In this document: piece after piece, positions 48,366-63,097 of the stretch
How positions within the stretch are numbered: the stretch's first letter is position 1
How the letters are laid out: the number at the start of each line of letters is the position of its first letter
Origin: Shinella lacus
Lineage (GTDB): Bacteria; Pseudomonadota; Alphaproteobacteria; Rhizobiales; Rhizobiaceae
Direction: 5' to 3'
Assembly (NCBI RefSeq): GCF_010994755.1
Contig: NZ_WHSB02000002.1
Span: 186,001-250,000 of the forward strand
DNA: 64,000 nucleotides
Notes under the pieces: generated by a model
Told to the model about the DNA's origin: nothing
Databases searched by the model: none
The model's input: only the letters and a program-made list of their open reading frames with translations
Position numbers and translations under genes: made by a program

Positions 48366-50126
48366 ATGATCAAAGAACAGCGACATGCGCGGATCATTTC
48401 CATGCTGCGCCAGCAGGGCGTCGTCAGCATGGAAGAGCTGCGCCGATCCATGCCGGGCGTCGCCGCGGTAACGCTGCGGCGTGATCTGGCGCAACTCGAT
48501 GAGCTCGGGGCGATCCGGCGCCGTCATGGTGGAGCCGTGCTGTCGGACGAGACGCTGCTTCGGGCGCGCGGCACATTGCCGGGGTCCGAGGCGAGCCCAC
48601 TGGCTTCCGATCTCGATTCGCTGGATGCGGTCATCCTGCCGCCGATTTCGGGCCGTGGAAGCGACGTGCTGCGGCGCGAGATCGTTCGCCGGGGTATCCC
48701 CTTCATCGCGGAGAGCGCGCCGCAGCAGGGTGGCGCCTATCTCGGTCCGGACAACTTTGTCGCCGGCGTCGAGCTTGGCCGGCTGGCGGGGCAGGAGATG
48801 GGCGGCAAGCTGGTCTCTATGCTCGTGATCGGTGTCGCCGAGCTGCCCAATACGCGCGAGCGCGTGGCGGGCTTCGAGGCGGGGCTGGCTGAAGCCGGCG
48901 TTAGGCCGACGATGATCCATCGGGTCAACGGTCAAGGCAGTTATAGGATCGGCCTGCGCGTGGCCCACGACGCCTTTGCTGCGGATGAGGCGATCAACCT
49001 TGTCTTCGCCGTCAACGACCATGCCGCCATTGCCGGGATCGAGGCCGCCGAGCGTCTCGACAGGCAGGTTGCCGTCTATTCGATGGGCGGCGAAAGCGCA
49101 GGCTTCATGGCGCGGCTTGCCGAGGCCGGACCGCTTCGGGCGGTCGGCGCGCTCTTTCCGGAAGTGGTGGGACGCCTCGGTATCGATATGGCCGTGTTGG
49201 GAATTCTTGGGCAATCCTTGCAAGACACGATCACGCCGCACGCCGTCATCACGCCGGAAAGTCTCGCCGACTACTTCGATAATTCGGCAGGGACCTGGCG
49301 GCTCAAGGAGGATGTGCTCGAACGACTGAGCAGCGTACGGCTGGGATTCAACACGAAGCTCCTGCGGTCGCGGCGCATCGGTTTCCTGCCGCATTATCCG
49401 GCGCATGATTGGTATCGCAGCATGGCGATCGCCATGCAGGACCGCTGCCTGGTCTATGGAGCGACGCTGGTCACCGCGCCGCCGCACCACGGCATTTCGG
49501 CCGAAATCGCCCGGTTGCGGCGTGAAATCGCGCAGAGTGCGGCGCAATTGCTGCGGCCGGGAATGGTGGTCGCGCTCAATGAGGGCCAGGTCAATCTCTT
49601 CCTGGCGGAGGAACTGCGCAATCTCGCGGCGCAAAAGTCGGAGCGCCTGCAGGGCGTGACCGTGTTGACCAATTCCTTCGACGTCCTGCACGCGCTTGAG
49701 GACACCTCCGCCGTCAAGGTCATCCTGACGGCCGGTGAGTATCAGAAGGCCGATCGCTGCCTGGTCGGCCCAAGTCTCGGCGCGATATTCGAGCGGGTTC
49801 GCCCGCATCTCGCTTTCATCGCGTCGGACGGCGTGACGCCGGGCTTCGGCCTGTCGTCGCTCGACGAGCGGCGGGCGCTCGCCGCCCAGCGTTTCATCAA
49901 CGCGGCCGAGATCAGCATCGTGCTGGCCGACAGCGTGGCGCTCGGCTCCGACGCCAACCACCGCATTGCCGGTATATCGCAGGTTCGCTCGGTTCTGACG
50001 GATGACGGCGCACTGCCGGAGGATCGGCAGCGCTTCCGTTCGGTCGGCGTCGATGTGCTGATTGCCGGCGAAGCGCTTCCCGAGCCGGCCTTCGAAGCGG
50101 GCGGGAACTATCGAAATCAAACCTGA
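48366..50126 (+). CDS. Composite DeoR-type regulator with embedded substrate-binding domain
   Basis: 586 residues, start ATG with AAGGAG. Residues 1-58 are a DeoR helix-turn-helix (MEELRRSMPG-VAAVTLRRDL). Residues about 86-315 resemble a LacI-type periplasmic-binding fold that lacks its first beta-alpha unit (LDAVILPPISGRG, then PNTRERVAGFEAGL). Residues about 336-372 (RIGFLPHYPAHDWYRSMAIAMQ) look like that missing unit. Residues about 385-560 match the DeoR C-terminal sensor (LLRPGMVVALNEG, VTVLTNSF, VGPSLGAIFERVRP). It stands before the sugar-type ABC / CoA operon and probably controls it. Confidence 0.85.
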   Translation: MIKEQRHARIISMLRQQGVVSMEELRRSMPGVAAVTLRRDLAQLDELGAIRRRHGGAVLSDETLLRARGTLPGSEASPLASDLDSLDAVILPPISGRGSDVLRREIVRRGIPFIAESAPQQGGAYLGPDNFVAGVELGRLAGQEMGGKLVSMLVIGVAELPNTRERVAGFEAGLAEAGVRPTMIHRVNGQGSYRIGLRVAHDAFAADEAINLVFAVNDHAAIAGIEAAERLDRQVAVYSMGGESAGFMARLAEAGPLRAVGALFPEVVGRLGIDMAVLGILGQSLQDTITPHAVITPESLADYFDNSAGTWRLKEDVLERLSSVRLGFNTKLLRSRRIGFLPHYPAHDWYRSMAIAMQDRCLVYGATLVTAPPHHGISAEIARLRREIAQSAAQLLRPGMVVALNEGQVNLFLAEELRNLAAQKSERLQGVTVLTNSFDVLHALEDTSAVKVILTAGEYQKADRCLVGPSLGAIFERVRPHLAFIASDGVTPGFGLSSLDERRALAAQRFINAAEISIVLADSVALGSDANHRIAGISQVRSVLTDDGALPEDRQRFRSVGVDVLIAGEALPEPAFEAGGNYRNQT

Positions 50127-50153: not shown

Positions 50154-51371
50154 ATGAAGCGATCATTTTTGACGACTGTGGCTCTGGGAGTTGGGTTGCT
50201 GGCAGCAGCGCCGGTTTTGGCCCAGGAGGTCACACTGCAATTCTGGGACAACCAGCAGACCGAAAGCGGCCTTTCGGACGTGCAGAAGGCCGCCGTCGAG
50301 CGGTTCATGAAGGAAAACCCCGATATCAAGATCGAGGTGACGACCGTTCCCTATCCGGAATACCAGCAGAGGCTGCTCACCGCCGTGCAGGGCGGCAACG
50401 CACCGGACATCGCGACGCTCGACCAGATCTGGGTCGGCGCCTTTGCCAAGGCGGGCGCGGTCTCCGACCTGACGGCGCAGGCCGGTGCGGCTGGTCTTGC
50501 CCGTGACGGCTTCTTCGGCGGCGCGTGGGATTCGGCCGTGCTGGACGGCAAGCTCTACGGCATTCCGTTCAACGTGGATGTCTGGCAGTTCAGCTACTAT
50601 AACAAGGCCCTGCTCGACGCTGCCAAGATCGATCCGGCGAGCCTTTCGACCTTCGATGGCCTGAAGGCTGCGGCCGAAAAGCTGACGGCGGATGGCAAGT
50701 TCGGGGTCGGCCTGTTCGGCCACAAGGGCGAGGATACGGTGGTCGTCGGGGATTCCTTCATCTTCTCCAACGGCGGCAAGATCCTCAACGACGACGGCAG
50801 CTGCGCGCTGACGGAGGCACCCGCCGTCGAGGCGCTCACCTACCTCCAGGGGTTGTCGAAGTTCGCGCCCGCCGGCATTCTCAACGCGTCGTCCGGCGAC
50901 ATGCGCGAACTGTTCCTCAACGGTTCGCTCGCCATCGAGTTCTGGCCGGCGCTGGAACAGCCGACCTTGCAGAAGAGCAGCCTCAGCTGGGGCTTTGTCA
51001 ATGGGACCGCACCTGAGGGCAAGACGCCGGTCGGCACCTTCGGCGGCTGGAATCTCGCTGTCTTCGAAACGTCGCAGCACAAGGACGCGGCCTGGAAGTT
51101 CATCCAGTTCATGGTGCGTGAGGATGTGAACGGCGATGTGGTCGATCTCATCCCGGCCAACAAGAAAGCCGCTGAGGCCTTCCTCGCGAAGAACCGGCAG
51201 GACCCGCAGACGATCATGACGCATCTCGACAATGCGAAGGCGCGGCCGCTCTCGCCGCGCTACCTCGAACTGGCGGATGCACAAGTCGCGATGTTCCAGG
51301 ACATCTATGCGGGCAACGATGTGGCCGCGGCGACGGCGAAGGCCTGCGACGTCATCAATTCCCTCAAGTAA
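50154..51371 (+). CDS. Sugar-type ABC transporter substrate-binding protein
   Basis: 405 residues with a signal peptide (ending PVLAQ-EV) and a strong GGAGGA ribosome site. Family-1 solute-binding fold: LQFWDNQQTE, FMKENPDIKIEVTTVPY and GGNAPDIATLD are the typical N-terminal stretches. It is periplasmic, delivering a sugar-like substrate to the permeases that follow. First gene of a ten-gene operon running to 60052. Confidence 0.95.
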   Translation: MKRSFLTTVALGVGLLAAAPVLAQEVTLQFWDNQQTESGLSDVQKAAVERFMKENPDIKIEVTTVPYPEYQQRLLTAVQGGNAPDIATLDQIWVGAFAKAGAVSDLTAQAGAAGLARDGFFGGAWDSAVLDGKLYGIPFNVDVWQFSYYNKALLDAAKIDPASLSTFDGLKAAAEKLTADGKFGVGLFGHKGEDTVVVGDSFIFSNGGKILNDDGSCALTEAPAVEALTYLQGLSKFAPAGILNASSGDMRELFLNGSLAIEFWPALEQPTLQKSSLSWGFVNGTAPEGKTPVGTFGGWNLAVFETSQHKDAAWKFIQFMVREDVNGDVVDLIPANKKAAEAFLAKNRQDPQTIMTHLDNAKARPLSPRYLELADAQVAMFQDIYAGNDVAAATAKACDVINSLK

Positions 51372-51428
51372 TTCCAGCGTCTGCCGCATCCCGGAAACGG
51401 GGTGCGGCAAGAGGACAAGGCTTTTCCC

Positions 51429-52313
51429 ATGCGCCAAGATCGCCGGCTTCACTGGCTGCTTCTTGCACCCGCTCTCCTTCTGATGGCGGTCATGCTGTAT
51501 TACCCGATGCTCGGTACGGTCTATGAAAGCTTCCACGAGACGAGCTTTCTGAATCCGGACCCGAAGTTCGCCGGCCTCGCGCTCTACCGGCGCGTTCTGG
51601 CCGACGGCACCTTTATCGAGGTTCTGGTAAATTCGATCGTCTGGACGCTCGGCGTCGTGCTGTTGCAAAACATTCTCGGTTTCCTGACGGCACTGCTGCT
51701 CAACCAGAACCTGCCCATGCAGGGCACCTTGCGCGCCATCGTGCTGCTGCCCTTCATCCTGCCGGGTGTCGTTGCCGCCATCCTCTGGCGCTTCATGTAC
51801 GATCCGCAGCTAGGGCTGGTGAATTCACTGCTGCTCCAGATTGGCCTGATCGAAAACAGCGTCGCCTGGCTTGCCGACAGCCGCATAGCCATGGCCTCCG
51901 TCATTATCGCGGCGGTCTGGAAGGGCTTTCCCTTCTCCATGCTGATCTATCTTGCAGCGCTTCAGAATGTCGATCGCAGCCAGATCGAGGCGGCGACGCT
52001 CGACGGCGCGGGGCCGGTTCGCCGGCTAGTCGATGTCACCTTGCCAGCGATCCGTGACGTGGTCGTTGTCAACATCGTGCTGACGATGATCCTGACATTC
52101 AACTATTTCGACATCATCTGGGTGCTGACCAAGGGTGGCCCGCAATCGGCGACTCATATCTTCCCCACCAAGATCTACGAGACCGGATTCGGCCAGTTCC
52201 GCTTCGGCGAGGCGGCGACCTACGGCGTCTTCTCGATCCTCGTGCTCGCTGTGCTCGTGGCGCTCTATGCCATCGTCCAGGGTGGCGCCAATCGCCGGAG
52301 GGCCGCGGCATGA
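51429..52313 (+). CDS. ABC transporter permease (MalF type)
   Basis: 294 residues from the ATG at 51429, six membrane helices. The cytoplasmic EAA loop IEAATLDGAGPVRRLVDVTLPAI couples to the ATPase. It overlaps the next permease by four bases. Confidence 0.94.
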   Translation: MRQDRRLHWLLLAPALLLMAVMLYYPMLGTVYESFHETSFLNPDPKFAGLALYRRVLADGTFIEVLVNSIVWTLGVVLLQNILGFLTALLLNQNLPMQGTLRAIVLLPFILPGVVAAILWRFMYDPQLGLVNSLLLQIGLIENSVAWLADSRIAMASVIIAAVWKGFPFSMLIYLAALQNVDRSQIEAATLDGAGPVRRLVDVTLPAIRDVVVVNIVLTMILTFNYFDIIWVLTKGGPQSATHIFPTKIYETGFGQFRFGEAATYGVFSILVLAVLVALYAIVQGGANRRRAAA

Positions 52314-53137
52314 AACAGACCCGCTCGACCCGTATCGGACTGATGTTGCTCCAGCTTCTGCTGGCCCTGCTTGTGCTCCTGCCGTTCTTCTGGATGTTTT
52401 CCGTCAGCCTCAAGCCGCCGGCAGAACCCTTTGCGATCCCGGCCCGGCTGTGGCCGGACAATCCGACGATCGACAATTACATCACCGCATTCCGGCCGGA
52501 ATTTCGCACCTATTTTTTCAATTCGCTGGTGGTTTCGCTGTCGACGGTCGTCATTAGCGTCACGCTCGGCCTGCTCGCCGCCTACAGTTTTACCCGGGCG
52601 CAGCTCGGCGTGATCTCCGCGCTGGTGGGGCTGGTGGTTCTGGCGCAGATGTTCCCGCATTCCGCAATCATCATTCCGATCTACAAGATGATGCGCAGCG
52701 CGAACCTGCTCAACACCTATTGGTCGCTGATCCTGGCCTATGTGTCAGTGACGCTGCCGGTGGCGATCTGGATGCTGCGGGGCTTCCTGCTGAAGTTGCC
52801 GGCAGCACTCGAAGAATCCGCGGCGATCGATGGCGCGACGCCGCTGCGCGTGTTTTGGGATATCGTCGTGCCGCTGTCGCGACCCGGCCTCATCGCCACC
52901 TCGGTCTACGTGCTGATCGTCACCTGGCAGGAATTCCTCTTTGCGCTCTCCTTCACCTCCACGAAAGAGATGCGCACGCTGCCGGTCGGGCTCAACGACT
53001 TCATCGGCCAGTACGGCATCCGCTACGGCGAACTCATGGCCTCCTCGGTCATGGTCTCCCTGCCGGTCATGGCCGTCTTCTTCTTCCTGCAACGCTATTT
53101 CGTCGCCGGCATCACCGCCGGTGCGGTGAAAGGATAG
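52310..53137 (+). CDS. ABC transporter permease (MalG type)
   Basis: 275 residues with six helices. EAA loop LEESAAIDGATPLRVFWDIVVPL followed by the MalG-type C terminus. It pairs with the preceding MalF-type permease, whose last four bases it overlaps (ATGA). Confidence 0.94.
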   Translation: MKQTRSTRIGLMLLQLLLALLVLLPFFWMFSVSLKPPAEPFAIPARLWPDNPTIDNYITAFRPEFRTYFFNSLVVSLSTVVISVTLGLLAAYSFTRAQLGVISALVGLVVLAQMFPHSAIIIPIYKMMRSANLLNTYWSLILAYVSVTLPVAIWMLRGFLLKLPAALEESAAIDGATPLRVFWDIVVPLSRPGLIATSVYVLIVTWQEFLFALSFTSTKEMRTLPVGLNDFIGQYGIRYGELMASSVMVSLPVMAVFFFLQRYFVAGITAGAVKG

Positions 53138-53140
53138 GCC

Positions 53141-53920
53141 ATGGCGCTGATCGAACCTTCCGATCTCCTACCGGGCATCCGCCAGATCCTGTTCAACCGG
53201 CCGGAGAAGCTGAACGCGCTCTCCACGCCCCTGATGCACGAATTCGAGGCCGCGCTCGACGCCGCGGCGGCGGACCCTGCCGTCCGCGTCATCGTGTTGC
53301 GTGGCGCCGGCGGTAAGGCCTTCGTCGCGGGGGCGGATATTGCCGAATACCAGGGAAACAAACGGGCGGAATTCATCGCCTATCAGCTCAATTCCCGTCG
53401 CGTCTTCGACCGGCTCGAACGCATCAGCAAGCCGGTCATCTGTGCGATCGACGGTTTTGCGCTCGGCGGCGGTTTCGAGATCGCGCTCTGCTGCGACATC
53501 CTGATCCTGTCGCAAGCCGCGCAAATCGGCCTGCCGGAAGGCCGGCTCGGGCTCAGTCCCGGCGGTGGCGGCACGCAGAGGCTGTTGCGGGCGATCGGCA
53601 AATACGCTGCGTCCGACCTGCTTCTGGCGGGATGGCGGCTATCGGCGGAGCGTGCCTTGGCGCTCGGGATCGCCGCCGATGTCGTGCCGGCGGAAGACAT
53701 GGACGAGGCGATCCTGCGCCGGGCGCGTGCCTGTCTCAAGATCGCGCCGCTAGCGGCCGCCGAAATGAAGCGGCTGCTGCGCGAAGGGCAGGATGCCGGC
53801 ATCGAGACCGCCAAGAGCCTGGAGCAGGAGGTGCTGTTTCGCCTCTATTCGACGGCCGATGGTCAGGAGGGCATCGATGCCTTCCTGGAAAAGCGCGATC
53901 CCCAGTTCAGGATGGAATAA
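53141..53920 (+). CDS. Enoyl-CoA hydratase/isomerase family protein
   Basis: 259 residues, crotonase fold. The CoA/oxyanion segment FVAGADIAEY, the GFALGGGFEIALCCDIL helix and the GLPEGRLGLSPGGGGTQRLLR loop are intact, with both catalytic Glu residues (FEIAL and LPEG). It acts on an acyl-CoA in the cytoplasm. It lies three bases after the permease stop in the same operon, an unusual partner for a sugar importer. Confidence 0.93.
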   Translation: MALIEPSDLLPGIRQILFNRPEKLNALSTPLMHEFEAALDAAAADPAVRVIVLRGAGGKAFVAGADIAEYQGNKRAEFIAYQLNSRRVFDRLERISKPVICAIDGFALGGGFEIALCCDILILSQAAQIGLPEGRLGLSPGGGGTQRLLRAIGKYAASDLLLAGWRLSAERALALGIAADVVPAEDMDEAILRRARACLKIAPLAAAEMKRLLREGQDAGIETAKSLEQEVLFRLYSTADGQEGIDAFLEKRDPQFRME

Positions 53921-53922
53921 TC

Positions 53923-54681
53923 ATGGAATTCGAAGGCAAAGTCATCGTCGTAACGGGTGGCGCCAAGGGCATCGGCCGCTCGTGCGTGGAACTGTTTGCG
54001 GCACGCGGCGGCCAGGTCGTCTTTTCCGATATTGACGAGGCAAGCGGCGATTCGCTCGCGGGCACACTCGGCCAATCCGTCGTGTTCCTGCGCGGCGACG
54101 TGCGCAGCCTTGCCGATATGCAGGCAATGGCGGCCTTGGCGGAGACGCAGTTCGGTGGGCTGGACATCATCGTCAACAATGCCGCCGTCGCCCTCAACGG
54201 CGTGATCGACGAGATCGACGAAGAGCGCTGGACGACGGTGATCGACACAAACCTGACCGGCTTCTGGCGGACCATGAAGGCCTGTGTGCCCTTGCTGCGC
54301 AAGCGCGGCGGCGGTGCGGTGGTCAATCTTTCCTCCGTCCAGGGCTTGATCGGCTTCCAGGGGTGGCCGGCTTATGCGGCCGCGAAAGGCGCGATCATTT
54401 CGCTGACCCGACAATGCGCCATCGACCTCGCCAAGGCGGGCATCCGCGTCAATGCGGTGGCGCCCGGTACGATCATGACTCCGATGAACGAGAAGATCTT
54501 CGAGGAGACCGACGACGCCCAGGCGCTGATCGACAGCTGGAACCGGGCGCACCCGATCGGCCGTTTCGGCCAGCCGATGGAGGTTGCCGAGCTCGTTGCC
54601 TTCCTCGCCTCGGACCGGGCAAGCTTCATCACCGGCGAGGTGGTGCGCTGCGACGGTGGTCTCGCCATTCGGGGTGAGTGA
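53923..54681 (+). CDS. Short-chain dehydrogenase/reductase
   Basis: 252 residues, classical SDR. TGGAKGIG cofactor loop, NNAAVA strand, catalytic Ser in NLSSVQG and Y-x3-K as YAAAK. Asp in FSDID following strand 2 suggests NAD preference. It overlaps the next gene by TGATG. Probably oxidises a hydroxyl of the imported compound or of its CoA ester. Confidence 0.94.
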   Translation: MEFEGKVIVVTGGAKGIGRSCVELFAARGGQVVFSDIDEASGDSLAGTLGQSVVFLRGDVRSLADMQAMAALAETQFGGLDIIVNNAAVALNGVIDEIDEERWTTVIDTNLTGFWRTMKACVPLLRKRGGGAVVNLSSVQGLIGFQGWPAYAAAKGAIISLTRQCAIDLAKAGIRVNAVAPGTIMTPMNEKIFEETDDAQALIDSWNRAHPIGRFGQPMEVAELVAFLASDRASFITGEVVRCDGGLAIRGE

Positions 54682-55763
54682 TGCAGGATCTGCTTTCCAT
54701 AGAGACTGCCTGCGGCGCGTTGCAGTTCGACCCCGCCGTCGGCAACATTCCCCGGCTGCGCTTCCATTGGGCGGGCCACACGATTGAGCCGCTTTACGCG
54801 GCGCCCTGGCGCGACGAGCCGGAGGCGCAGGCGGATGCGAACCTTTCGCCTGCCGAGCGCCGGCTGGCAGGGGATTTTTTCTGTGCGCCTTTCGCCGCCG
54901 CCGTGGATCCGGACGTGCCCGCCCATGGCTGGACGGCCAACAGCCCCTGGCGTCTCGAAGCGCGCAAGCCCGGCGGGCTGCGTCTTGCCCTTGCTCAGGA
55001 CGTGCACGGTGCAAGGATCACCAAGGATCTTGCGCTCGCCGAGGATGCGCCGCTTGTCTACCAGGAGCACCAGATCGAGGGCGGCGAGAGTCTGCTGCCT
55101 GTATCCCACCATCCGATGCTGCATCTTTCAGGGCAGGGGCGCTTCTTCACCTCGAAGAAACGGGCGATACTGACGCCCGGACAGGTTTTCCAGCCGGGGC
55201 GCTCCTGCCTTGCCTATCCGACGCGGGCAACCGAGCTGGAGCATATCGCCGGCGCAAGTGGCAAGCCGGTGGACCTGACGCGCTGGCCGATCGGCATCCG
55301 CAACGAGGATTTCGTCACCCTGGTGGAGGCGCCCGGCGCCACGCTCGGCTGGTCAGCGGTGATCCGGGACGATGAAAACGACATTGTCTTCTTCCTCAAG
55401 GACCCGTCCGTCCTGCCGATCACCATGCTGTGGTTCTCCAATGGCGGGCGCGACCATGCGCCGTGGAACGGACGTGTTCTCGGCGTCACCGGCATCGAAG
55501 ACGCCTGCTGCGCGGGGGCGACCGGCGAAGCCGCAGCACTGCGGGAAAACCCGATCGCGGCTGAAGGCGTGGCGACCGGCTTGCCACTTGGCGAAGGTCG
55601 CAGCCACACCGTCCGCCATGTAATGGGCGCCGTGCCGCGTCCCTCCGGCTGGACGGAGATTGCCGGCATATCCGTCGCGGGTGACCGGCTTACCATTTCG
55701 GACGACGCCGGGCGGCAAGTGTCGCTACCGTGGCGCCGTGACTTCCTGAAAGGACATGAATGA
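54681..55763 (+). CDS. Uncharacterised protein, possible sugar-mutarotase-like fold
   Basis: 360 residues from the ATG at 54681. No signal peptide or membrane helix. It is beta-rich throughout, with clustered aromatic and His residues (LRFHWAGHTIEPL, QEHQIEGGESLLPVSHHPML) reminiscent of carbohydrate mutarotase / galactose-mutarotase-like sandwiches. I cannot assign a family. Operon position between the SDR and the ATPase argues for action on the imported sugar-like substrate. Confidence 0.8.
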   Translation: MQDLLSIETACGALQFDPAVGNIPRLRFHWAGHTIEPLYAAPWRDEPEAQADANLSPAERRLAGDFFCAPFAAAVDPDVPAHGWTANSPWRLEARKPGGLRLALAQDVHGARITKDLALAEDAPLVYQEHQIEGGESLLPVSHHPMLHLSGQGRFFTSKKRAILTPGQVFQPGRSCLAYPTRATELEHIAGASGKPVDLTRWPIGIRNEDFVTLVEAPGATLGWSAVIRDDENDIVFFLKDPSVLPITMLWFSNGGRDHAPWNGRVLGVTGIEDACCAGATGEAAALRENPIAAEGVATGLPLGEGRSHTVRHVMGAVPRPSGWTEIAGISVAGDRLTISDDAGRQVSLPWRRDFLKGHE

Positions 55764-55764
55764 C

Positions 55765-56817
55765 ATGGCCGCAATCGAATTGCGCAAACTGACCAAGAGC
55801 TTTGGCGCTTACACGGCGCTGGGCGGACTGGACCTCTCCATCGGCGACGGTGAATTTCTCGTCCTGCTCGGCCCCTCCGGCTGCGGCAAGTCGACCACCA
55901 TGCGGATCGTCGCAGGCCTCGAAGAGCCCACATCGGGGGAGATCCTGATCGGCGGGCGCCGGGTCAACGATATCCCGGCCCGCGACCGCGACCTCGCCAT
56001 GGTGTTCCAGAATTATGCGCTCTACCCACACATGACGGTTGGCGAGAACATCGCCTACCCGCTGAAGGTCCGCAAAGTGGCAAAGCCCGAGCGGGAGGAA
56101 CTGGTTCGCGCCGCAGCCCAGCGCGTGGATATGCTGCATCTCCTGACGCGGCGCCCGGCCGAGCTTTCCGGCGGCCAGCGCCAACGCGTGGCACTCGCCC
56201 GCGCCATCGTGCGCCGTCCGCAGATTTTTCTGATGGACGAACCGCTTTCCAACCTCGATGCGAAGCTGCGCACGGTGATGCGTGGCGATTTGAAGAACCT
56301 GCAACGGGACCTTGGGGTCACCACCATCTACGTAACCCACGACCAGGTTGAGGCCATGACGCTCGCCGACCGCATCGTCGTGCTGAACAAAGCAACGATC
56401 CAGCAGATCGGAACGCCGGCCGAAATCTACGCCCGTCCCGCAAACACCTTCGTCGCCGGCTTCATCGGCTCACCGCCGATGAACCTCTTGCCCGGCCATC
56501 TGCGGGACGGATGGTTCGCCAGTGATGGCGGGCGTTTCCCCTTGGCGCAGGCAGCGGGCGATGTGACGCTCGGGGTGCGGCCGGAGCATGTTCGGCTCGC
56601 CCCGGAAGGCGGTGGCCATTTCTCCGGCACCGTCTTTTCTTCGGAACTGCTCGGCGATTGCACGATCCTGATCGTCAAGGCGGGCGAAGCTCTGGTCGCC
56701 GCCAAGTTGCCGCCGGAGACGGGCTTTGAAAGGGGGGCGCCTGTCAGCCTGAGCTTCGATGGGGGACGCATGCATCTCTTCGACACGGCAAGCGGTGAGC
56801 GCCGGGGAGAGGCGTGA
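55765..56817 (+). CDS. Sugar ABC transporter ATPase (MalK/UgpC type)
   Basis: 350 residues from the ATG at 55765, which is better spaced to AAAGGA than the ATG at 55756. Walker A GPSGCGKST, signature LSGGQRQRVALARAI, Walker B IFLMDEPLSNLD, switch His in VTHDQ and a C-terminal TOBE region (LGVRPEHVRL). It energises the MalF/MalG permeases. It overlaps the next start by TGATG. Confidence 0.95.
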   Translation: MAAIELRKLTKSFGAYTALGGLDLSIGDGEFLVLLGPSGCGKSTTMRIVAGLEEPTSGEILIGGRRVNDIPARDRDLAMVFQNYALYPHMTVGENIAYPLKVRKVAKPEREELVRAAAQRVDMLHLLTRRPAELSGGQRQRVALARAIVRRPQIFLMDEPLSNLDAKLRTVMRGDLKNLQRDLGVTTIYVTHDQVEAMTLADRIVVLNKATIQQIGTPAEIYARPANTFVAGFIGSPPMNLLPGHLRDGWFASDGGRFPLAQAAGDVTLGVRPEHVRLAPEGGGHFSGTVFSSELLGDCTILIVKAGEALVAAKLPPETGFERGAPVSLSFDGGRMHLFDTASGERRGEA

Positions 56818-57677
56818 TGTCAACGCCCATTCTCCCCTCGGATCGCCTGCGGGTCTTCTTCGACGGCATCTGGAGCGAGCCAAGGCTCAGCCATCCGGAA
56901 GGCGTCGCCATCGGGCCGGACCGGTGGATCTGGTGCGGCAACCAAGACGGCGATATTTGCCGTATCGCCCCGGACGGCGGCCGCATCGAGCGTGTCGCTG
57001 GAACCGGCGGTTTCATCCTCGGCCTTGCCTTCGACGGCGACCGGGCGCTCTATGCCTGCGACCTGAAACACGCGGCCGTGTTTCGGCTGGATCTCGTGAC
57101 CGGCGCGCTTGCGCGGCTCGAAGCAGCGGGACTGCGCATTCCCAACTACCCCATCATCGATCGGCGCCGGGGCCGGCTCCTCGTTTCGGACAGCCATGAT
57201 TCCGCGAAACCCGGGCCGGGCATATGGTCCTTCGACCTCTCCGGTGGAGAAGGTCGGCTCTGGTGCTGCGCCGATTTCACCTTCGCCAATGGGCTTGCCA
57301 TGCGGCCCGGCGAAAACGCGCTCTATGTCTGCGAGACCTTCGCGCAACGGGTATCGCGTCTTGAGATCGAAGCGGATGGCGCCGCCGGTGCCATCCGCCC
57401 TTTCGTTACCGATCTGCCCGGCTATCCGGACGGCGTGGCCTTTGACGGCGAAGGCAATCTGCTGATCTCTCTTTACGAACCTTCGCGCATCCTGCGCATC
57501 GACAGTGCGGGAAACGTGCGCGTGCTTGCCGAAGACCCGACGGCGCATGTGCTCTGCCATCCGACGAACATTGCCTTCGACGGCACGACACTCTTTGCCG
57601 CCAATATCGGCCGCTGGCACATCGCGGCCATCGAGTGTGATGTCGGGGCACCGCCGCTCTGGAGGGAAACACTATGA
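56817..57677 (+). CDS. SMP-30/gluconolactonase family lactonase
   Basis: 286 residues, six-bladed propeller. Metal ligands visible: Glu28 (HPEGVA), Asn158 (FANGLAM) and Asp205 (YPDGVAF), as in SMP-30/LRE gluconolactonases, which open sugar lactones. No signal peptide, so cytoplasmic. Its stop overlaps the next start (ATGA). Confidence 0.92.
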   Translation: MSTPILPSDRLRVFFDGIWSEPRLSHPEGVAIGPDRWIWCGNQDGDICRIAPDGGRIERVAGTGGFILGLAFDGDRALYACDLKHAAVFRLDLVTGALARLEAAGLRIPNYPIIDRRRGRLLVSDSHDSAKPGPGIWSFDLSGGEGRLWCCADFTFANGLAMRPGENALYVCETFAQRVSRLEIEADGAAGAIRPFVTDLPGYPDGVAFDGEGNLLISLYEPSRILRIDSAGNVRVLAEDPTAHVLCHPTNIAFDGTTLFAANIGRWHIAAIECDVGAPPLWRETL

Positions 57678-58810
57678 CCTTCATCGGCCTGACCTGGGAC
57701 CATCCGCGCGGCTACAATGCGCTCGCCGAGACCGCGCGCCGCGTGAATACGGGCCGCACGAAACCATTGATCCACTGGAAAAAGCAGCCGCTCGAAGGCT
57801 TTGAAAGCGCGTCGATTCGCGAACTTGCCGAAAACAACGATCTATTGGTGATGGATCATCCGCATATCGGCGAGGCTTTTGCGGAAGGGTGCTTCATGCC
57901 TCTAGAAGACCTCTATTCCGCCGAGCAGTTGCAGGCTTGGCAGCAGGAGAGCGTCGGCCCCTCGGCCGAAAGCTATCGCTGGGACGGCAGGACCTGGGCC
58001 TTGCCGCTGGATGTCGCGACGCAGGTCACGGCGCGCCGCACCGACCGAATCGCCAGGCCTCCCCAGAGTTGGGACGAAGTCACGACGTTGGCAAAGCGCC
58101 AGCCGGTGGCGCAATCGCTCGCCGGGCCTCATGCGGTGCTGAGCCTGATCTCGATGGTGGCGGGTGCCGGCGGTCGTGTTGGCGGGGAGGATTTCGTGTC
58201 CGACGCCAAAGGTGCCGCCGCGCTTGAAATCATGCACCGCCTTTATGCCCGCCGCCCGCCCGGCAGCGAGGATCTCAATCCCATCGGTCTTCTCGAAAGC
58301 ATGGCGCGAAGCGACGATATTGCGCTCGTGCCGCTGGTCTTCGGTTACGTCACCTATGCCGCGCTGGGCCATGCGCCCCATACGATCGGGTTTTCGGACA
58401 CGATCCGCATGTCCGGGGGAAAGGGCGGCGTAATAGGGGGCACGGGCATCGCCTTTTCGCGCCGGTGCCGACCGACGCCGGAGCTTCTCGCCCATATCGC
58501 ATCGTTGCTCTCGGTGCCGACGCAGGTCGAAACCTTACCCGCTTTCGGCGGCCAGCCGTCCGCGCGCGCCGCGTGGCAAGACGCGGCGGTCAACGCGGTC
58601 TGGGGTGATTTCTACCGCAACACGCTGGCCACAGCGGAAACCGCGCTGCTGCGCCCTCGTTTCGACGGTTACATCGCTTTCCAGACAGCGGCGGCGGAAC
58701 GGATCCGCAGCGCGCTGGAACGCCGGGAAGAGCCGGAAACCACTCTTGCCATCCTTCGCACCCTTTGGTTCCGCGCGCGCCATGCCGCACGCGGGCTGCT
58801 CGATACCTGA
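57674..58810 (+). CDS. Substrate-binding-protein-like cytosolic protein
   Basis: 378 residues. The two-lobed family-1 solute-binding fold is suggested by GLTWDHPRGYNALAETARR, LLVMDHPHIGEAF and WALPLDVATQV, yet there is no signal peptide or lipobox: the chain starts MTFIGLT. It sits between a lactonase and a CoA transferase and overlaps the lactonase stop. As far as I recall, homologues with conserved WDHPRG and DHPH motifs occur next to CoA transferases elsewhere, but no function is established. It may bind a cytosolic intermediate. Confidence 0.82.
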   Translation: MTFIGLTWDHPRGYNALAETARRVNTGRTKPLIHWKKQPLEGFESASIRELAENNDLLVMDHPHIGEAFAEGCFMPLEDLYSAEQLQAWQQESVGPSAESYRWDGRTWALPLDVATQVTARRTDRIARPPQSWDEVTTLAKRQPVAQSLAGPHAVLSLISMVAGAGGRVGGEDFVSDAKGAAALEIMHRLYARRPPGSEDLNPIGLLESMARSDDIALVPLVFGYVTYAALGHAPHTIGFSDTIRMSGGKGGVIGGTGIAFSRRCRPTPELLAHIASLLSVPTQVETLPAFGGQPSARAAWQDAAVNAVWGDFYRNTLATAETALLRPRFDGYIAFQTAAAERIRSALERREEPETTLAILRTLWFRARHAARGLLDT

Positions 58811-58822
58811 AAGGCTTTCCCG

Positions 58823-60052
58823 ATGACCGAACCACAAACCGACACTCCCGCGGCCTTGGCGGGCATTCGCATCCTCGATTTTTCGCATCTGCTGCAAGGC
58901 CCGTTCGCTACGCAGCTCCTGGCGGATATGGGGGCGGATGTCATCAAGATCGAGCGCCCCGGCAAGGGTGATCTCTTCCGCTCGCTCACCTTCCGCAACA
59001 AGTGGGTCGGCGGCAGCGAGAGCCCGAATTTCCTCGCCTGGAACCGCAACAAGCGCTCGATCGCACTGAACCTCAAGGCGCCGGAGGTGAAGGCCGTTCT
59101 CATGGAGATGGCGAAGAGCGCCGACATCGTCGTGCAGAATTTCCGGCCCGGCGTGATGAAGGCGATGGGGTACGGCTACGAGGATTTTCGCGCCGTCAAT
59201 CCGCGCATCATCTATTGCTCCGGGTCCGGCTATGGCGAAGACGGTCCCTATGTCGACCGGCCCGGCCAGGACATGCTGGTGCAGGGCCTCACCGGCATCA
59301 TGGCGGCGACCGGGCAGGCCGATGCACCGCCAACGCCCGTCGGGGCGGGCTTTTCCGATCAGGTCGGCGCGATGAATATGGTCTACGGCATCCTTTCGGC
59401 ACTCTACTGGCGCGAAAAGTCGGGGCTCGGGCAGGAGGTCAAAGTGAACCTTCTCGCCGGCATGCTGGCGCACCAGAACCAGGAAATGGTCATGGCACTG
59501 AACTTCAATGAGGATTTTCAACGCCCCCGCTCGGGCATCGGCCACCCCGGCATGGACGCGCCGTTTGGCACCTATCCGACCAAGGACGGCTGGGTGACGA
59601 TCGCTATGAGCCCCTACAGCACCCTAGTCGGCGTCCTCGGCAATGACGATCTGCTCGTCTACGACGACCCGCAAAAGCTCTTTGCGCAGCGAGACGAGAT
59701 TTGGCGCGCGCTTGCGGCAGAGACGGGGAAATGGACGAGTTCCGCGCTGCTGGAGGCCTTGCTCAATGCCGATATCTGGTGCGGAGAGGTGAAATCCCAC
59801 CTGCAGGCCGCGGAAGACCCGCAGGTGCGCCACATGGAACTGGTGACCAGCTACGAGCATCCGCGCGCCGGCACGGTGAAGGTCGTCGCGCCTGCCGTGC
59901 GCCATTCGGAAACGCCCGCCACGATCCGGCGACCCGCACCGTTGGTCGGGCAGCATAGCCGCGAGATCCTGAGCGAGTTCGGCTACAGCCAGGATGAGAT
60001 CGAGGCGTGGTTGGCTTCGGGCGTCGTCTATGCCGACGAGGTTTCTGCATAA
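58823..60052 (+). CDS. CaiB/BaiF (class III) CoA transferase
   Basis: 409 residues. The N-terminal ILDFSHLLQGPFATQLLADMGADVIKIE and the catalytic Asp150 (GQDMLVQGLTG) are intact. Class III transferases move CoA between acyl groups, here presumably activating a carboxylate derived from the imported compound. Last gene of the operon; the convergent AsnC gene ends 15 bases downstream. Confidence 0.95.
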   Translation: MTEPQTDTPAALAGIRILDFSHLLQGPFATQLLADMGADVIKIERPGKGDLFRSLTFRNKWVGGSESPNFLAWNRNKRSIALNLKAPEVKAVLMEMAKSADIVVQNFRPGVMKAMGYGYEDFRAVNPRIIYCSGSGYGEDGPYVDRPGQDMLVQGLTGIMAATGQADAPPTPVGAGFSDQVGAMNMVYGILSALYWREKSGLGQEVKVNLLAGMLAHQNQEMVMALNFNEDFQRPRSGIGHPGMDAPFGTYPTKDGWVTIAMSPYSTLVGVLGNDDLLVYDDPQKLFAQRDEIWRALAAETGKWTSSALLEALLNADIWCGEVKSHLQAAEDPQVRHMELVTSYEHPRAGTVKVVAPAVRHSETPATIRRPAPLVGQHSREILSEFGYSQDEIEAWLASGVVYADEVSA

Positions 60053-60066
60053 TAGTAGCCTCCGGG

Positions 60067-60534
60067 CTAATAGCCCTCGACCGGGACGCCCAGGCCCACC
60101 TTCACGCGATCCATCGCAACGAAGGTGCGGAAGCGTTTGACGTTGTTGTTGCCGAAGAACAGGCGGCGGGTGAGGGCTTCGTAGTCGGCCATCGCCGGCA
60201 CGACGACGACGAGGATGAAGTCGGCTTCGCCGGTGACATAGTAGCACTGCTGGATTTCCGGGGCGGCGGCGAACTCCCGCTTGGCCGCCTCGATCTGTGC
60301 CGCCGTTTCGCTGATCACCTCCACCTCCACGAAGATGGTAATGGATTGCCCGAGGGCGACCGGATCGACGACCGCGACATTCGCCCGGATGACGCCCTCT
60401 TCTGTCATGCGTTTTATGCGGCGCTGGACGGCCGGTGCGGAGAGATTGACGGCCTCGCCGATGGTGCGCTGCGGCGTCGTGTTGTCCTTTTGCAGGATCG
60501 CGAGGATTTTTCGGTCGAAGGCATCAAGGCGCAC
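60067..60534 (-). CDS. Lrp/AsnC family transcriptional regulator
   Basis: 155 residues from a GTG at 60534 (RLDAFDRKIL) with GGAG upstream; an ATG at 60591 would extend it by 19 residues. N-terminal helix-turn-helix (TIGEAVNLSAPAVQRRIKRM), then the RAM ligand-binding domain (about 70-150). It is divergent from the diaminopropionate ammonia-lyase gene across 107 bases and so is probably its substrate-responsive activator. Confidence 0.92.
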   Translation of the reverse strand: MRLDAFDRKILAILQKDNTTPQRTIGEAVNLSAPAVQRRIKRMTEEGVIRANVAVVDPVALGQSITIFVEVEVISETAAQIEAAKREFAAAPEIQQCYYVTGEADFILVVVVPAMADYEALTRRLFFGNNNVKRFRTFVAMDRVKVGLGVPVEGY

Positions 60535-60641
60535 GAATGGGTCTCCGGACGAAACAAACTTGCAAAACAGAGGCCGAATATCAGCGCTCATTTCGGTGTG
60601 GTTGCAATATCTTTCAGCAGCCACATCGAAGGAGGCCGCCC

Positions 60642-61853
60642 ATGTTTCTCAAGAATTCCCATGTCGACTATCGCGCTCCGCTCGATCCACGCGATGCCGA
60701 GACCCTCGGCGTCGCCGCCGCGGCAGAGGTCGAACGCTATCTCTCCTTCCGTGACAACCACGTGGAGACGCCGCTTGTCGCGCTGCCAGGGCTGGCGGAA
60801 AAACTCGGTGTTGGCGCGGTCCACATCAAGGATGAGGGGCACCGTCTCGGGCTCGGCAGCTTCAAGGCACTCGGCGGGGCCTATGCGGTGATCCGGCTCG
60901 TGCTGGAGGAGGCCGGCAGGCGGCTCGACCGGGTCATCGACATATCCGAGCTTCATGCGCCGGAGGTGCAGGCCGTCGCGCGCAGCATGACGGTCGCTTG
61001 CGCCACGGATGGCAATCACGGCCGTTCGGTCGCGCAGGGCGCTGAGCTCGTGGGCGCACGCGCGGCGATCTTCGTGCATTCAGGCGTTAGCGATGAGCGG
61101 GTGGCCGCCATTGCCCGCTTCGGTGCGGAGATGGTCCGCGTCGAGGGCACCTATGACGATTCTGTCCGCGAGGCGGCGCGCGTGGCGGCCGAGAGGGACT
61201 GGACGATCGTCTCGGACACGTCCTGGCCGGGCTATGAACGCATCCCCGGACTGGTGATGCAGGGCTACACCGCGCTCGTTCGCGAGGCGCTGCGGAAACT
61301 GCCGGAGCTTCCGACCCATGTCTTCATCCAGTCGGGCGTGGGCGGCATCGCCGCTGCCGTTGCCGGCCACCTCGCGCTCGAATTCGGCGAAGCCCGCCCT
61401 GTCTTCACCGTCGTCGATCCGGCCCGCGCCGCCTGCCTCTTCGAGACGGCGCGGGCTGGCCATCCGGTGACGATCGCGCATGGTGCGCCGACTGTCATGG
61501 CTATGCTCGAATGTTACGAGCCGTCGCTCATCGCATGGCGTGTCCTGTCGCGCGTCGCGGATGCCTTCATGACCGTCGACGAGGAGGACGCGGTCGCGGT
61601 GATGCGGCAGCTCGCCAATCCGGTGGCCGGCGATCCCGCCATCGTTGCGGGCGAAAGCGGCGGTGTCGGGCTTGCGGGCCTGATGCGTGCGATGGCCGAT
61701 CCGGCGGCCAAGGCTGCGCTGGGTATCGATGCCCGGTCGCGGATATTCCTCGTGAACACGGAGGGGGCCACGGACCCCGGAAAATACGCGGAAATCGTCG
61801 GGTTTTCGCCTGTGGTCGTCGCGGCGCGCAACAACAGAGGTGCCGGTGCATGA
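60642..61853 (+). CDS. dpaL: 2,3-diaminopropionate ammonia-lyase
   Basis: 403 residues from an ATG behind AAGGAGG. PLP enzyme that splits 2,3-diaminopropionate into pyruvate and two ammonia. The Schiff-base Lys75 lies in LGLGSFKALGG, the phosphate/PLP-binding DGNHGRSVAQ and the GVGGIAAAVAGH loop are present, and the length equals YgeX/DpaL. Its last bases overlap the hydrolase start (ATGA). Threonine-dehydratase relatives are less similar in the DGNHGR segment. Confidence 0.93.
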   Translation: MFLKNSHVDYRAPLDPRDAETLGVAAAAEVERYLSFRDNHVETPLVALPGLAEKLGVGAVHIKDEGHRLGLGSFKALGGAYAVIRLVLEEAGRRLDRVIDISELHAPEVQAVARSMTVACATDGNHGRSVAQGAELVGARAAIFVHSGVSDERVAAIARFGAEMVRVEGTYDDSVREAARVAAERDWTIVSDTSWPGYERIPGLVMQGYTALVREALRKLPELPTHVFIQSGVGGIAAAVAGHLALEFGEARPVFTVVDPARAACLFETARAGHPVTIAHGAPTVMAMLECYEPSLIAWRVLSRVADAFMTVDEEDAVAVMRQLANPVAGDPAIVAGESGGVGLAGLMRAMADPAAKAALGIDARSRIFLVNTEGATDPGKYAEIVGFSPVVVAARNNRGAGA

Positions 61854-63097
61854 GCCATCCATCGATCAACGCGGCGCGGCTTCTCGGGCGTATCCGAACC
61901 CTCGGCTCCATCGGTCGTGATGGCGAAGACCGGCTTGTTCGCCTCGCCGCGTCCGATACGGAAAAGCTCGGGCGCGACCAGTTCGTGGCTTGGCTGGAGG
62001 GAGCCGGACTCGCCGTCGCCGTGGACCGCATGGGCAACATTTTTGGCATCTGGCGGCCGGAAGGTCTGGACGATGCGGCGCCGCTGATGCTCGGCTCGCA
62101 TATCGACACGGTCATCGATGCCGGCATCTATGACGGATGTTACGGCGTTCTTGCGGGGCTGGAGGTGATCGAGACCTTGAAAGCCGAGGGTTTTCGGCCA
62201 TCGCGCCCGGTGGTTGTCGCCGCTTTTACCAACGAGGAAGGTGTGCGTTACGCGCCCGACATGATGGGCTCGCTGGTCTATGCGGGCGGGCTCGATGTCG
62301 ATGCGGCGCTTGCATCGGTCGGGACGGATGGAACGGTGCTCGGCGACGAACTCGCCCGCATCGGCTACGCCGGCGACTATGAACCCGGCTTCCTGAGGCC
62401 GCAGGCCTATCTCGAACTGCACATAGAACAAGGCCCCGCGCTGGAGCGCGAGAGCATCTCGATCGGTGCGGTCGAGAACCTGCAGGGGATTTCCTGGCAG
62501 CGGGTGACGATCGACGGCGACGCCAATCATGCCGGCACCACGCCGATGTCGATGCGCCGGGATGCCGGCCATGCGGCCGCACGCGTCGTCACCTTCCTGC
62601 GGGAGCGCGCGGTGGCCGCCAACACGCCAACAGTCGCCACGGTCGGCTGCATGCGCTTCGAGCCCAACGCCATCAACGTCATCCCGTCGCGCGCGACCTT
62701 CACGGTCGACCTGCGCGATCCGGACGAGGGGCGCCTGACGCAGGAGGAGGCGGCCCTTGCCGCATTCCTCGACGTTTTGGCGATGGAAGAGCGGTTTTCG
62801 GTTTCCGTCGAGCGGCTGGCCCGGTTCGAACCGGTCACGTTCGACCGGGGGATTGTCGAGCACATCGAGGCAGCGGCCGGAGAGCGCGGTCTTTCCTGCA
62901 AACGCATGACATCCGGCGCCGGCCACGATGCGCAGATGATCGCCCGCATCGCGCCCGCCGCGATGATCTTCGTGCCGAGCGCCGGTGGCATTAGCCACAA
63001 TCCGAAGGAATATACCGCGGACGACGACCTTGTTGCCGGGGCCAACATCCTGCTCGATGTCGTTCGCCGCCTGGCCGCTGAAGGAGAAACGGCATGA
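61850..63097 (+). CDS. Zn-dependent amidase (N-carbamoyl-L-amino acid hydrolase / allantoate amidohydrolase type)
   Basis: 415 residues. M20/M28-like di-metal site: GSHIDTV (His, Asp), the Glu pair in TNEEGVRY, HIEQGP (His), and a C-terminal His in SGAGHDAQM. This group removes carbamoyl or ureido groups from amino acids. It overlaps dpaL by four bases and is followed directly by a second M20 enzyme. Confidence 0.92.
   Translation: MSHPSINAARLLGRIRTLGSIGRDGEDRLVRLAASDTEKLGRDQFVAWLEGAGLAVAVDRMGNIFGIWRPEGLDDAAPLMLGSHIDTVIDAGIYDGCYGVLAGLEVIETLKAEGFRPSRPVVVAAFTNEEGVRYAPDMMGSLVYAGGLDVDAALASVGTDGTVLGDELARIGYAGDYEPGFLRPQAYLELHIEQGPALERESISIGAVENLQGISWQRVTIDGDANHAGTTPMSMRRDAGHAAARVVTFLRERAVAANTPTVATVGCMRFEPNAINVIPSRATFTVDLRDPDEGRLTQEEAALAAFLDVLAMEERFSVSVERLARFEPVTFDRGIVEHIEAAAGERGLSCKRMTSGAGHDAQMIARIAPAAMIFVPSAGGISHNPKEYTADDDLVAGANILLDVVRRLAAEGETA

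Follow-up and report, generated by a model that had tools for sequence, protein, structure and literature searches.

What would a sugar importer be doing in one operon with a coenzyme A (CoA) transferase and an enoyl-CoA hydratase? The question is raised by ten genes at positions 50154–60052 of a 64,000-nucleotide stretch of the genome of Shinella lacus (contig NZ_WHSB02000002.1, positions 186,001 to 250,000; the whole stretch is referred to below as the window). A preliminary description of the locus recognised ten co-directional, near-contiguous genes with no kinase, aldolase or thiolase, and matched their route to no described pathway. All ten genes are indeed present, in the same direction and nearly contiguous, with Pfam families SBP_bac_1, BPD_transp_1 (twice), ECH_1, SDR, ABC_tran/TOBE_2, SGL, SBP_bac_8 and CoA_transf_3, and a Pfam/NCBIfam scan of the ten found no kinase, aldolase or thiolase family. 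No description of the gene set was found in the open-access literature, to which our search was confined, leaving subscription papers and preprints outside its scope and the absence unproven. What that description missed is that one of the ten proteins, a homologue of sugar-binding proteins that we call CSBP, marks a module found beyond rhizobia, that a mutarotase fold can be assigned to the 'beta-rich' protein, and that the CoA genes can be read as a cycling device. The module appears to join the oxidative breakdown of sugars to a CoA cycle like that of carnitine metabolism.

A CoA module shared by distant bacteria

Three of the ten genes make up the core of the module:

57674–58810, + strand: CSBP, leaderless MalE-fold protein, predicted to be cytosolic, the module marker (Pfam SBP_bac_8)
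58823–60052, + strand: CaiB/BaiF (class III) CoA-transferase, hereafter CaiB (PF02515, 355.8 bits, residues 12–379 of 409)
53141–53920, + strand: crotonase-fold enoyl-CoA hydratase/dehydratase, ECH (PF00378, 206 bits)

A collection of genomes from 84,980 species was scanned with two peptide patterns, both close to the window's own CSBP, and yielded 312 relatives, the best 80 of which were kept (60 from Alphaproteobacteria, 15 from Actinomycetes, three from Acidobacteriota, one from a gammaproteobacterium and one from a metagenome-assembled genome recorded under a Bacillota name). The last of these, 'Exiguobacterium profundum' (L051), has an operon of the window's type, found otherwise in Alphaproteobacteria, and the record is probably misnamed or a mixed bin. 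A divergent set was obtained with a second CSBP from the window's genome (contig C24) as query in 249 genomes of the order, 36 of which gave matches; apart from the window there were 47 places, 41 of them taken in and six left out. The two sets comprise 121 loci, or 120 distinct ones, as L110 and L201 coincide. Gene families at these loci were labelled by tblastn against references of our choosing over at most 8–10 kb on each side (less at some loci), and genes elsewhere in those genomes are outside this view. Relatives of the module occur well beyond the rhizobia, in several bacterial phyla.

At the best 80 loci, a crotonase was found at all 80, CaiB at 78 and a short-chain dehydrogenase/reductase (SDR) at 75, and CaiB lies on the same strand within 3 kb of CSBP at 77. 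Within 8 kb of CSBP across the 121 loci, CaiB is present at 113 and a hydratase at 114 (crotonase at 91, MaoC without crotonase at 23), with CaiB and either hydratase together at 110; in 96 of the 121, CaiB is no more than 100 bp from CSBP on the same strand. For comparison, 55 SBP_bac_8 matches were found in the window's genome, and none of the best 30, which included the binding protein of the window's importer, had any of the three enzymes (CaiB, crotonase, MaoC) at distances of up to 1.5 kb. At that distance, CSBP is accompanied by CaiB at 101 and by a hydratase at 79 of the 121 loci. The co-occurrence of the module genes is more than chance. The preliminary description had named rare clustering of these genes as a finding that would speak against it; in fact they cluster strongly, although the full set of ten is limited to loci of the window's type.

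Two types of locus could be distinguished among the best 80. Type I (22 loci), defined by the presence of the window's regulator or of its mutarotase-fold protein, BETA, has relatives of the regulator, importer parts, ECH, SDR and CaiB in all 22, BETA in 21 and SMP-30 in 20. The 42 loci of type II, recognised by a DUF4432 'aldose 1-epimerase', all have SDR and ECH, with CaiB in 40 and a FAH-family protein in 23. All 16 loci outside both types have CaiB and ECH.

The label of crotonase or MaoC changes three times on a FastTree phylogeny of CSBP (115 labelled rows; 46 of the 118 inner branches weak), and Pfam confirmed the MaoC family on three plasmid relatives. This exchange of one hydratase for the other suggests that the need shared by these loci is the hydration or dehydration of a CoA ester. 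Both enzymes of the CoA arm have also kept their presumed active sites: Asp150 of CaiB, which we take to be the catalytic Asp of class III CoA-transferases, is present in 79 of 79 aligned rows, and Glu113 and Glu133 of ECH, presumably the two catalytic Glu of crotonase hydratases, in 81 of 81. Pairwise distances correlate at 0.93 for CaiB–ECH, 0.73 for ECH–CSBP and 0.68 for CaiB–CSBP, but these statistics have no control for the species tree and are not used as support.

Crotonase-fold hydrolases of diketones are known, and the crotonase could instead carry out a retro-Claisen cleavage of a CoA-activated 3-keto sugar acid, breaking a carbon–carbon bond with no dehydration at all. Enzymes that might supply the keto group are at hand, since an SDR is present at 75 and a Gfo/Idh/MocA oxidoreductase at 16 of the 80 loci. 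Nevertheless, we consider such a reaction quite improbable: both Glu positions are kept, as in hydratases, the nearest PDB relative of ECH is 3-hydroxypropionyl-CoA dehydratase, followed by enoyl-CoA hydratases, and MaoC, a family not known to include C–C hydrolases, stands in the crotonase's place at 23 of the 121 loci.

CSBP, a binding-protein homologue without a leader

CSBP has the fold of a substrate-binding protein (SBP). In the window it carries no export signal, in agreement with the preliminary description: its start overlaps the preceding gene by 4 bp and a conserved motif begins at residue 7. Upstream starts were looked for in the 108 of the 121 entries that match the motif; 68 lack any start codon at least 30 codons upstream, and the other 40 do have one and may start earlier. 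Eight positions (H10, R12, D61, H62, D113, Y228, Q294 and R327) are identical in 122 of 122 rows, and four of them, H62, D113, Y228 and Q294, had a match in no more than one of the 12 ordinary SBPs that were roughly aligned with CSBP.

These features bear on the possibility that CSBP is a passive cytosolic sensor or buffer of a sugar or sugar acid, while the products of the CoA genes break down an acyl group or a different acid that enters with the sugar, and the shared neighbourhood reflects co-regulation only. We regard this as improbable, given the 96 loci with CaiB no more than 100 bp away on the same strand, and given eight invariant polar or aromatic positions, half of which are hardly seen in ordinary SBPs. 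CSBP differs from binding proteins of the MalE, LpqY and SmoF kind in having no signal peptide, in the place of its gene among catabolic genes beside CaiB, and in its invariant set of His, Arg, Asp, Tyr and Gln residues. MqnA is one enzyme with an SBP fold. Another is cyclohexadienyl dehydratase, an SBP that evolved into a dehydratase (PMC7683729). Both are precedents for the passage from SBP to enzyme, although they belong to other SBP subfamilies, and catalysis by CSBP is a proposal by analogy.

CSBP matched no Pfam or NCBIfam model specific to it above cut-off, and no fusion to CaiB or to other module proteins was seen among the open reading frames of 87 stretches. A CoA-cycling role would also account for a group of probably misannotated proteins, which carry the label 'carbohydrate ABC transporter substrate-binding protein' and have a 'CoA transferase' next to them. 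The second CSBP of the window's genome, on C24, is also beside CaiB, with no crotonase match in the 20-kb stretch (L132, G000:C24:358500-378400); an L-rhamnose mutarotase, an enolase-superfamily protein, a Gfo/Idh/MocA oxidoreductase and ATP-binding cassette (ABC) transporter genes are near it, together with MaoC matches.

Genes for a proposed sugar oxidation

Between ECH and CSBP lie three genes that point to oxidation of a sugar:

53923–54681, + strand: SDR dehydrogenase, proposed aldose 1-dehydrogenase (Pfam)
54678–55763, + strand: BETA, galactose-mutarotase-fold protein (predicted structure)
56814–57677, + strand: SMP-30/gluconolactonase-family protein, proposed lactonase (PF08450, 63.5 bits; cut-off 26.3)

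The SDR begins at 53923, a longer listed frame from 53632 overlapping the hydratase gene, and its YxxxK motif is present in 73 of 73 aligned rows. BETA, the 'unrecognised beta-rich protein' of the preliminary description, indeed matches no Pfam or NCBIfam model, but it is no longer unrecognised: its predicted structure (pLDDT 93.2) models as galactose mutarotase and places it in the galactose-mutarotase fold. Either this protein (21 loci) or DUF4432 (42 loci) is present at 63 of the 80 loci. Sequence kinship between the two was considered and rejected (hhalign probability 0.1), so that their equivalence is one of fold and position only.

Acid-sugar dehydratases and downstream enzymes

Dehydration of the acid sugar is the committed step of Entner-Doudoroff-like oxidative pathways, and the enzymes known to us that catalyse it depend on an Fe-S cluster or on metal ions. 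None of the window's ten genes encodes a canonical acid-sugar dehydratase, and 63 of the 80 loci have no relative of IlvD/EDD, enolase-superfamily, UxaA/GarD or UxuA dehydratases. IlvD relatives were found at none of the 80 loci with one reference and at one (L080) with five. FAH-family proteins occur at 31 loci and KGSADH, an alpha-ketoglutaric semialdehyde (KGSA) dehydrogenase-like aldehyde dehydrogenase, at 16, where that is the best family, with a score under the family cut-off. Solved relatives of the FAH protein are 9kkt, a FAH-family protein, and 2q18, 2-keto-3-deoxy-D-arabinonate dehydratase. Where loci have FAH, KGSADH or LRA6-like FAH genes, 26 of 37 are without a canonical dehydratase relative, as are 11 of the 14 that have both FAH and KGSADH.

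The combination of FAH and KGSADH suggests a pentose at some loci. Rhamnogalacturonidase, GH2 and GH141 genes in sphingomonads and caulobacters, with rhamnose-mutarotase genes, point to plant cell-wall sugars, and the two pointers need not mean one sugar. At seven loci (L057, L058, L064, L068, L074, L106 and L117), rhamnogalacturonidase-like, GH2 or GH141 genes and a 2-hydroxyacid dehydrogenase adjoin the module, along with a P-loop kinase that is a 'glycerate kinase' by eye only and has no NCBIfam match. On a Microvirga plasmid (L168:8937-14762), CSBP is accompanied by two UxuA-type dehydratases, SMP-30, an SDR and an aldose epimerase; CaiB is not annotated in the 23 kb, for which the gene table may be incomplete.

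A proposed route and the evidence that weighs on it

The preferred reading, to which we give slightly less than an even chance, is that the operon combines non-phosphorylative oxidation of an aldose with dehydration of the acid sugar through CoA thioesters. Its reactions, substrate and role for CSBP are what we infer from gene content, conservation, predicted folds, conserved residues, the exchange of hydratases and the window's leaderless CSBP. A CUT1 importer would take up the sugar, BETA would provide the correct anomer, the SDR would oxidise C1 to give a lactone, and the SMP-30 protein would open the lactone to the aldonate. CaiB would then transfer CoA to the aldonate from a CoA-ester donor, in the steady state the reaction product. 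The crotonase, or MaoC in sister systems, would exploit the acidity of the C2 hydrogen beside the thioester and eliminate the C3 hydroxyl, yielding the enol of a 2-keto-3-deoxy-aldonyl-CoA. By passing its CoA to the next aldonate, CaiB would free the 2-keto-3-deoxy-aldonate for downstream enzymes, candidates for which adjoin many related loci (FAH-family proteins related to 2-keto-3-deoxypentonate dehydratase, and the KGSA dehydrogenase-like protein). CSBP, lacking an export signal, would act in the cytosol with CaiB, either presenting the sugar acid or itself being catalytic. The conserved residues, the scarcity of canonical dehydratases, the CoA cycling known for carnitine and the non-phosphorylative pathways, taken together, are the reason why CaiB and the hydratase are most simply read, by analogy, as an acid-sugar dehydratase in which CSBP either binds the sugar acid as a partner or serves as a catalytic subunit. 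Also in favour are the co-occurrence of the module genes, the mutarotase-fold or DUF4432 protein at 63 of the 80 loci, the Microvirga locus, where UxuA-type dehydratases accompany CSBP and CaiB is not annotated, and the precedent of a dehydratase that arose from an SBP.

The order of import, oxidation, delactonisation and CoA-ester formation had been put forward in the preliminary description and is supported as a proposal; its last part, a general degradation of the CoA ester, is replaced here, as CaiB and the hydratase look like a device for CoA-cycling dehydration. A generic beta-oxidation arm was set aside because neither a thiolase nor an acyl-CoA dehydrogenase is among the ten genes.

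Several observations weigh against the proposed route. The ten genes include no CoA ligase that could prime the cycle, nor does the window locus have an enzyme to take a 2-keto-3-deoxy acid further, FAH relatives lying on contigs C40 and C24. The genome has IlvD (five) and UxaA (one) relatives on other contigs, and DHDPS relatives elsewhere. SMP-30 is present at just 20 of the 80 loci, every one of type I, and 16 have neither BETA nor DUF4432. H10, R12, D61 and R327 of CSBP occur also in four to six of the 12 ordinary SBPs in the rough alignment. Within 8 kb, neither hydratase is present at seven of the 121 loci and CaiB is missing at eight, so the link of CSBP to CaiB is not a strict one; L192 and L196, two CSBP relatives without CaiB, have a Meth_synt_2 (MetE-like) protein, SDRs and a CUT1 importer in their vicinity. 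At L207 and L208, CSBP relatives with no CaiB or hydratase match are close to DUF2264 proteins. Two type II loci, L071 and L103, have no CaiB match and retain the other genes, with the SDR gene ending about 9 bp before CSBP.

A further point against it is that 12 of the 23 loci with MaoC have a canonical dehydratase as well, from the enolase superfamily or another family, and the triad of CSBP, CaiB and hydratase may do another step there. A replacement of the canonical dehydratase everywhere is not upheld. The same 12 loci favour an alternative in which the substrate of the CoA arm is a 3-hydroxy or 3-alkoxy acid that lacks the normal 2,3-diol, such as the acid of a 2-deoxy or O-methyl sugar; the product would be an ordinary enoyl-CoA, bound for further degradation, and no aldonate dehydratase would be replaced. 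Crotonase and MaoC are ordinary families of 3-hydroxyacyl-CoA dehydratases and hydratases, and the tie of the operon to sugar import and oxidation counts in favour of such a substrate too. Yet the absence of thiolase and acyl-CoA dehydrogenase from the ten genes, and the resemblance of downstream genes, where seen, to enzymes for 2-keto-3-deoxy acids (FAH at 31 and KGSADH at 16 of the 80 loci), lead us to judge this alternative unlikely, though one to be taken seriously.

Comparison with known systems

The closest working parallel to the proposed CoA cycling is carnitine metabolism in Escherichia coli. There, carnitine dehydratase activity requires CaiD together with CaiB, and CaiB cycles CoA between product and substrate (PMC2131755). 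A class III CoA-transferase is thus paired with a crotonase-fold hydratase to dehydrate a free hydroxy acid with the help of CoA, as proposed for the module. A transferase and a CoA hydratase are likewise encoded together in the window and, within 8 kb, at 110 of the 121 loci. The cai system differs in its carnitine substrate and in having the carrier CaiT and ligase CaiC, neither of which is among the ten genes, where the module has a sugar ABC importer. The module in turn has an SBP-fold partner, a mutarotase-fold protein, an SDR, a proposed lactonase and, at 23 of the 121 loci, MaoC as hydratase. By this comparison, the module is not a cai system and would only work like one.

The proposed upstream steps resemble non-phosphorylative Routes I–III, by which pentoses and deoxyhexoses are converted to 2-keto-3-deoxy acids (PMC6336799). 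There, too, an aldose passes through lactone and aldonate to a 2-keto-3-deoxy acid, and an ABC importer and a regulator are clustered with the enzymes; FAH-family and KGSA dehydrogenase-like proteins are shared with part of the related loci. The dehydratases of those routes are IlvD/EDD, enolase-superfamily or UxaA/GarD proteins (PMC6336799), families absent from most loci here, and the module has CaiB, a hydratase and CSBP instead.

Regulator, importer and neighbouring genes

The operon probably starts one gene earlier than the ten, at the regulator, a DeoR/PBP/DeoRC fusion. The remaining features are:

48366–50126, + strand: regulator of 586 residues, DeoR-type helix-turn-helix, Peripla_BP_4 and DeoR C-terminal sensor (domain scan)
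50154–51371, + strand: CUT1-type periplasmic sugar-binding protein (SBP_bac_1), apparent signal peptide read by eye (Pfam)
51402–52313, + strand: ABC permease 1, alternative ATG start at 51429 (Pfam)
52310–53137, + strand: ABC permease 2 (Pfam)
55756–56817, + strand: MalK/UgpC-type ABC ATPase (Pfam/NCBIfam)

The regulator gene ends 27 bp 5' of the SBP gene, and the fusion amounts to two possible ligand sensors in one chain. The gap from the SBP gene to permease 1 is 30 bp with a GTG start or 57 bp with the ATG start, and the later spacings, in order from permease 1 to CaiB, are -4, +3, +2, -4, -8, -4, -4 and +12 bp. A scan for promoters and terminators gave uninformative counts, with one promoter-like site against 2.3 in shuffled sequence and 14 terminator-like sites against 9.6. 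A separate group 3' of the operon (60067–63097) comprises a minus-strand Lrp/AsnC regulator followed by genes for a PLP-dependent enzyme and an M20-type hydrolase.

Implications

The boldest form of the proposal, which we put forward as doubtful, is that CSBP is a new class of enzyme, or an obligate catalytic subunit, derived from a MalE-type binding protein, and that it joins a CaiB-type transferase and a hydratase, crotonase and MaoC being exchangeable, in a modular acid-sugar dehydratase dependent on CoA. This assembly would replace metal-dependent dehydratases in the breakdown of sugar acids by Alphaproteobacteria, Actinomycetes and Acidobacteriota. If this were so, the module would provide a natural example of a binding protein turned into a cytosolic enzyme or subunit. 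A CoA-cycling route to acid-sugar dehydration would be a different chemistry, used by bacteria from soil or associated with plants in three or more phyla, and may be free of oxygen-sensitive clusters.

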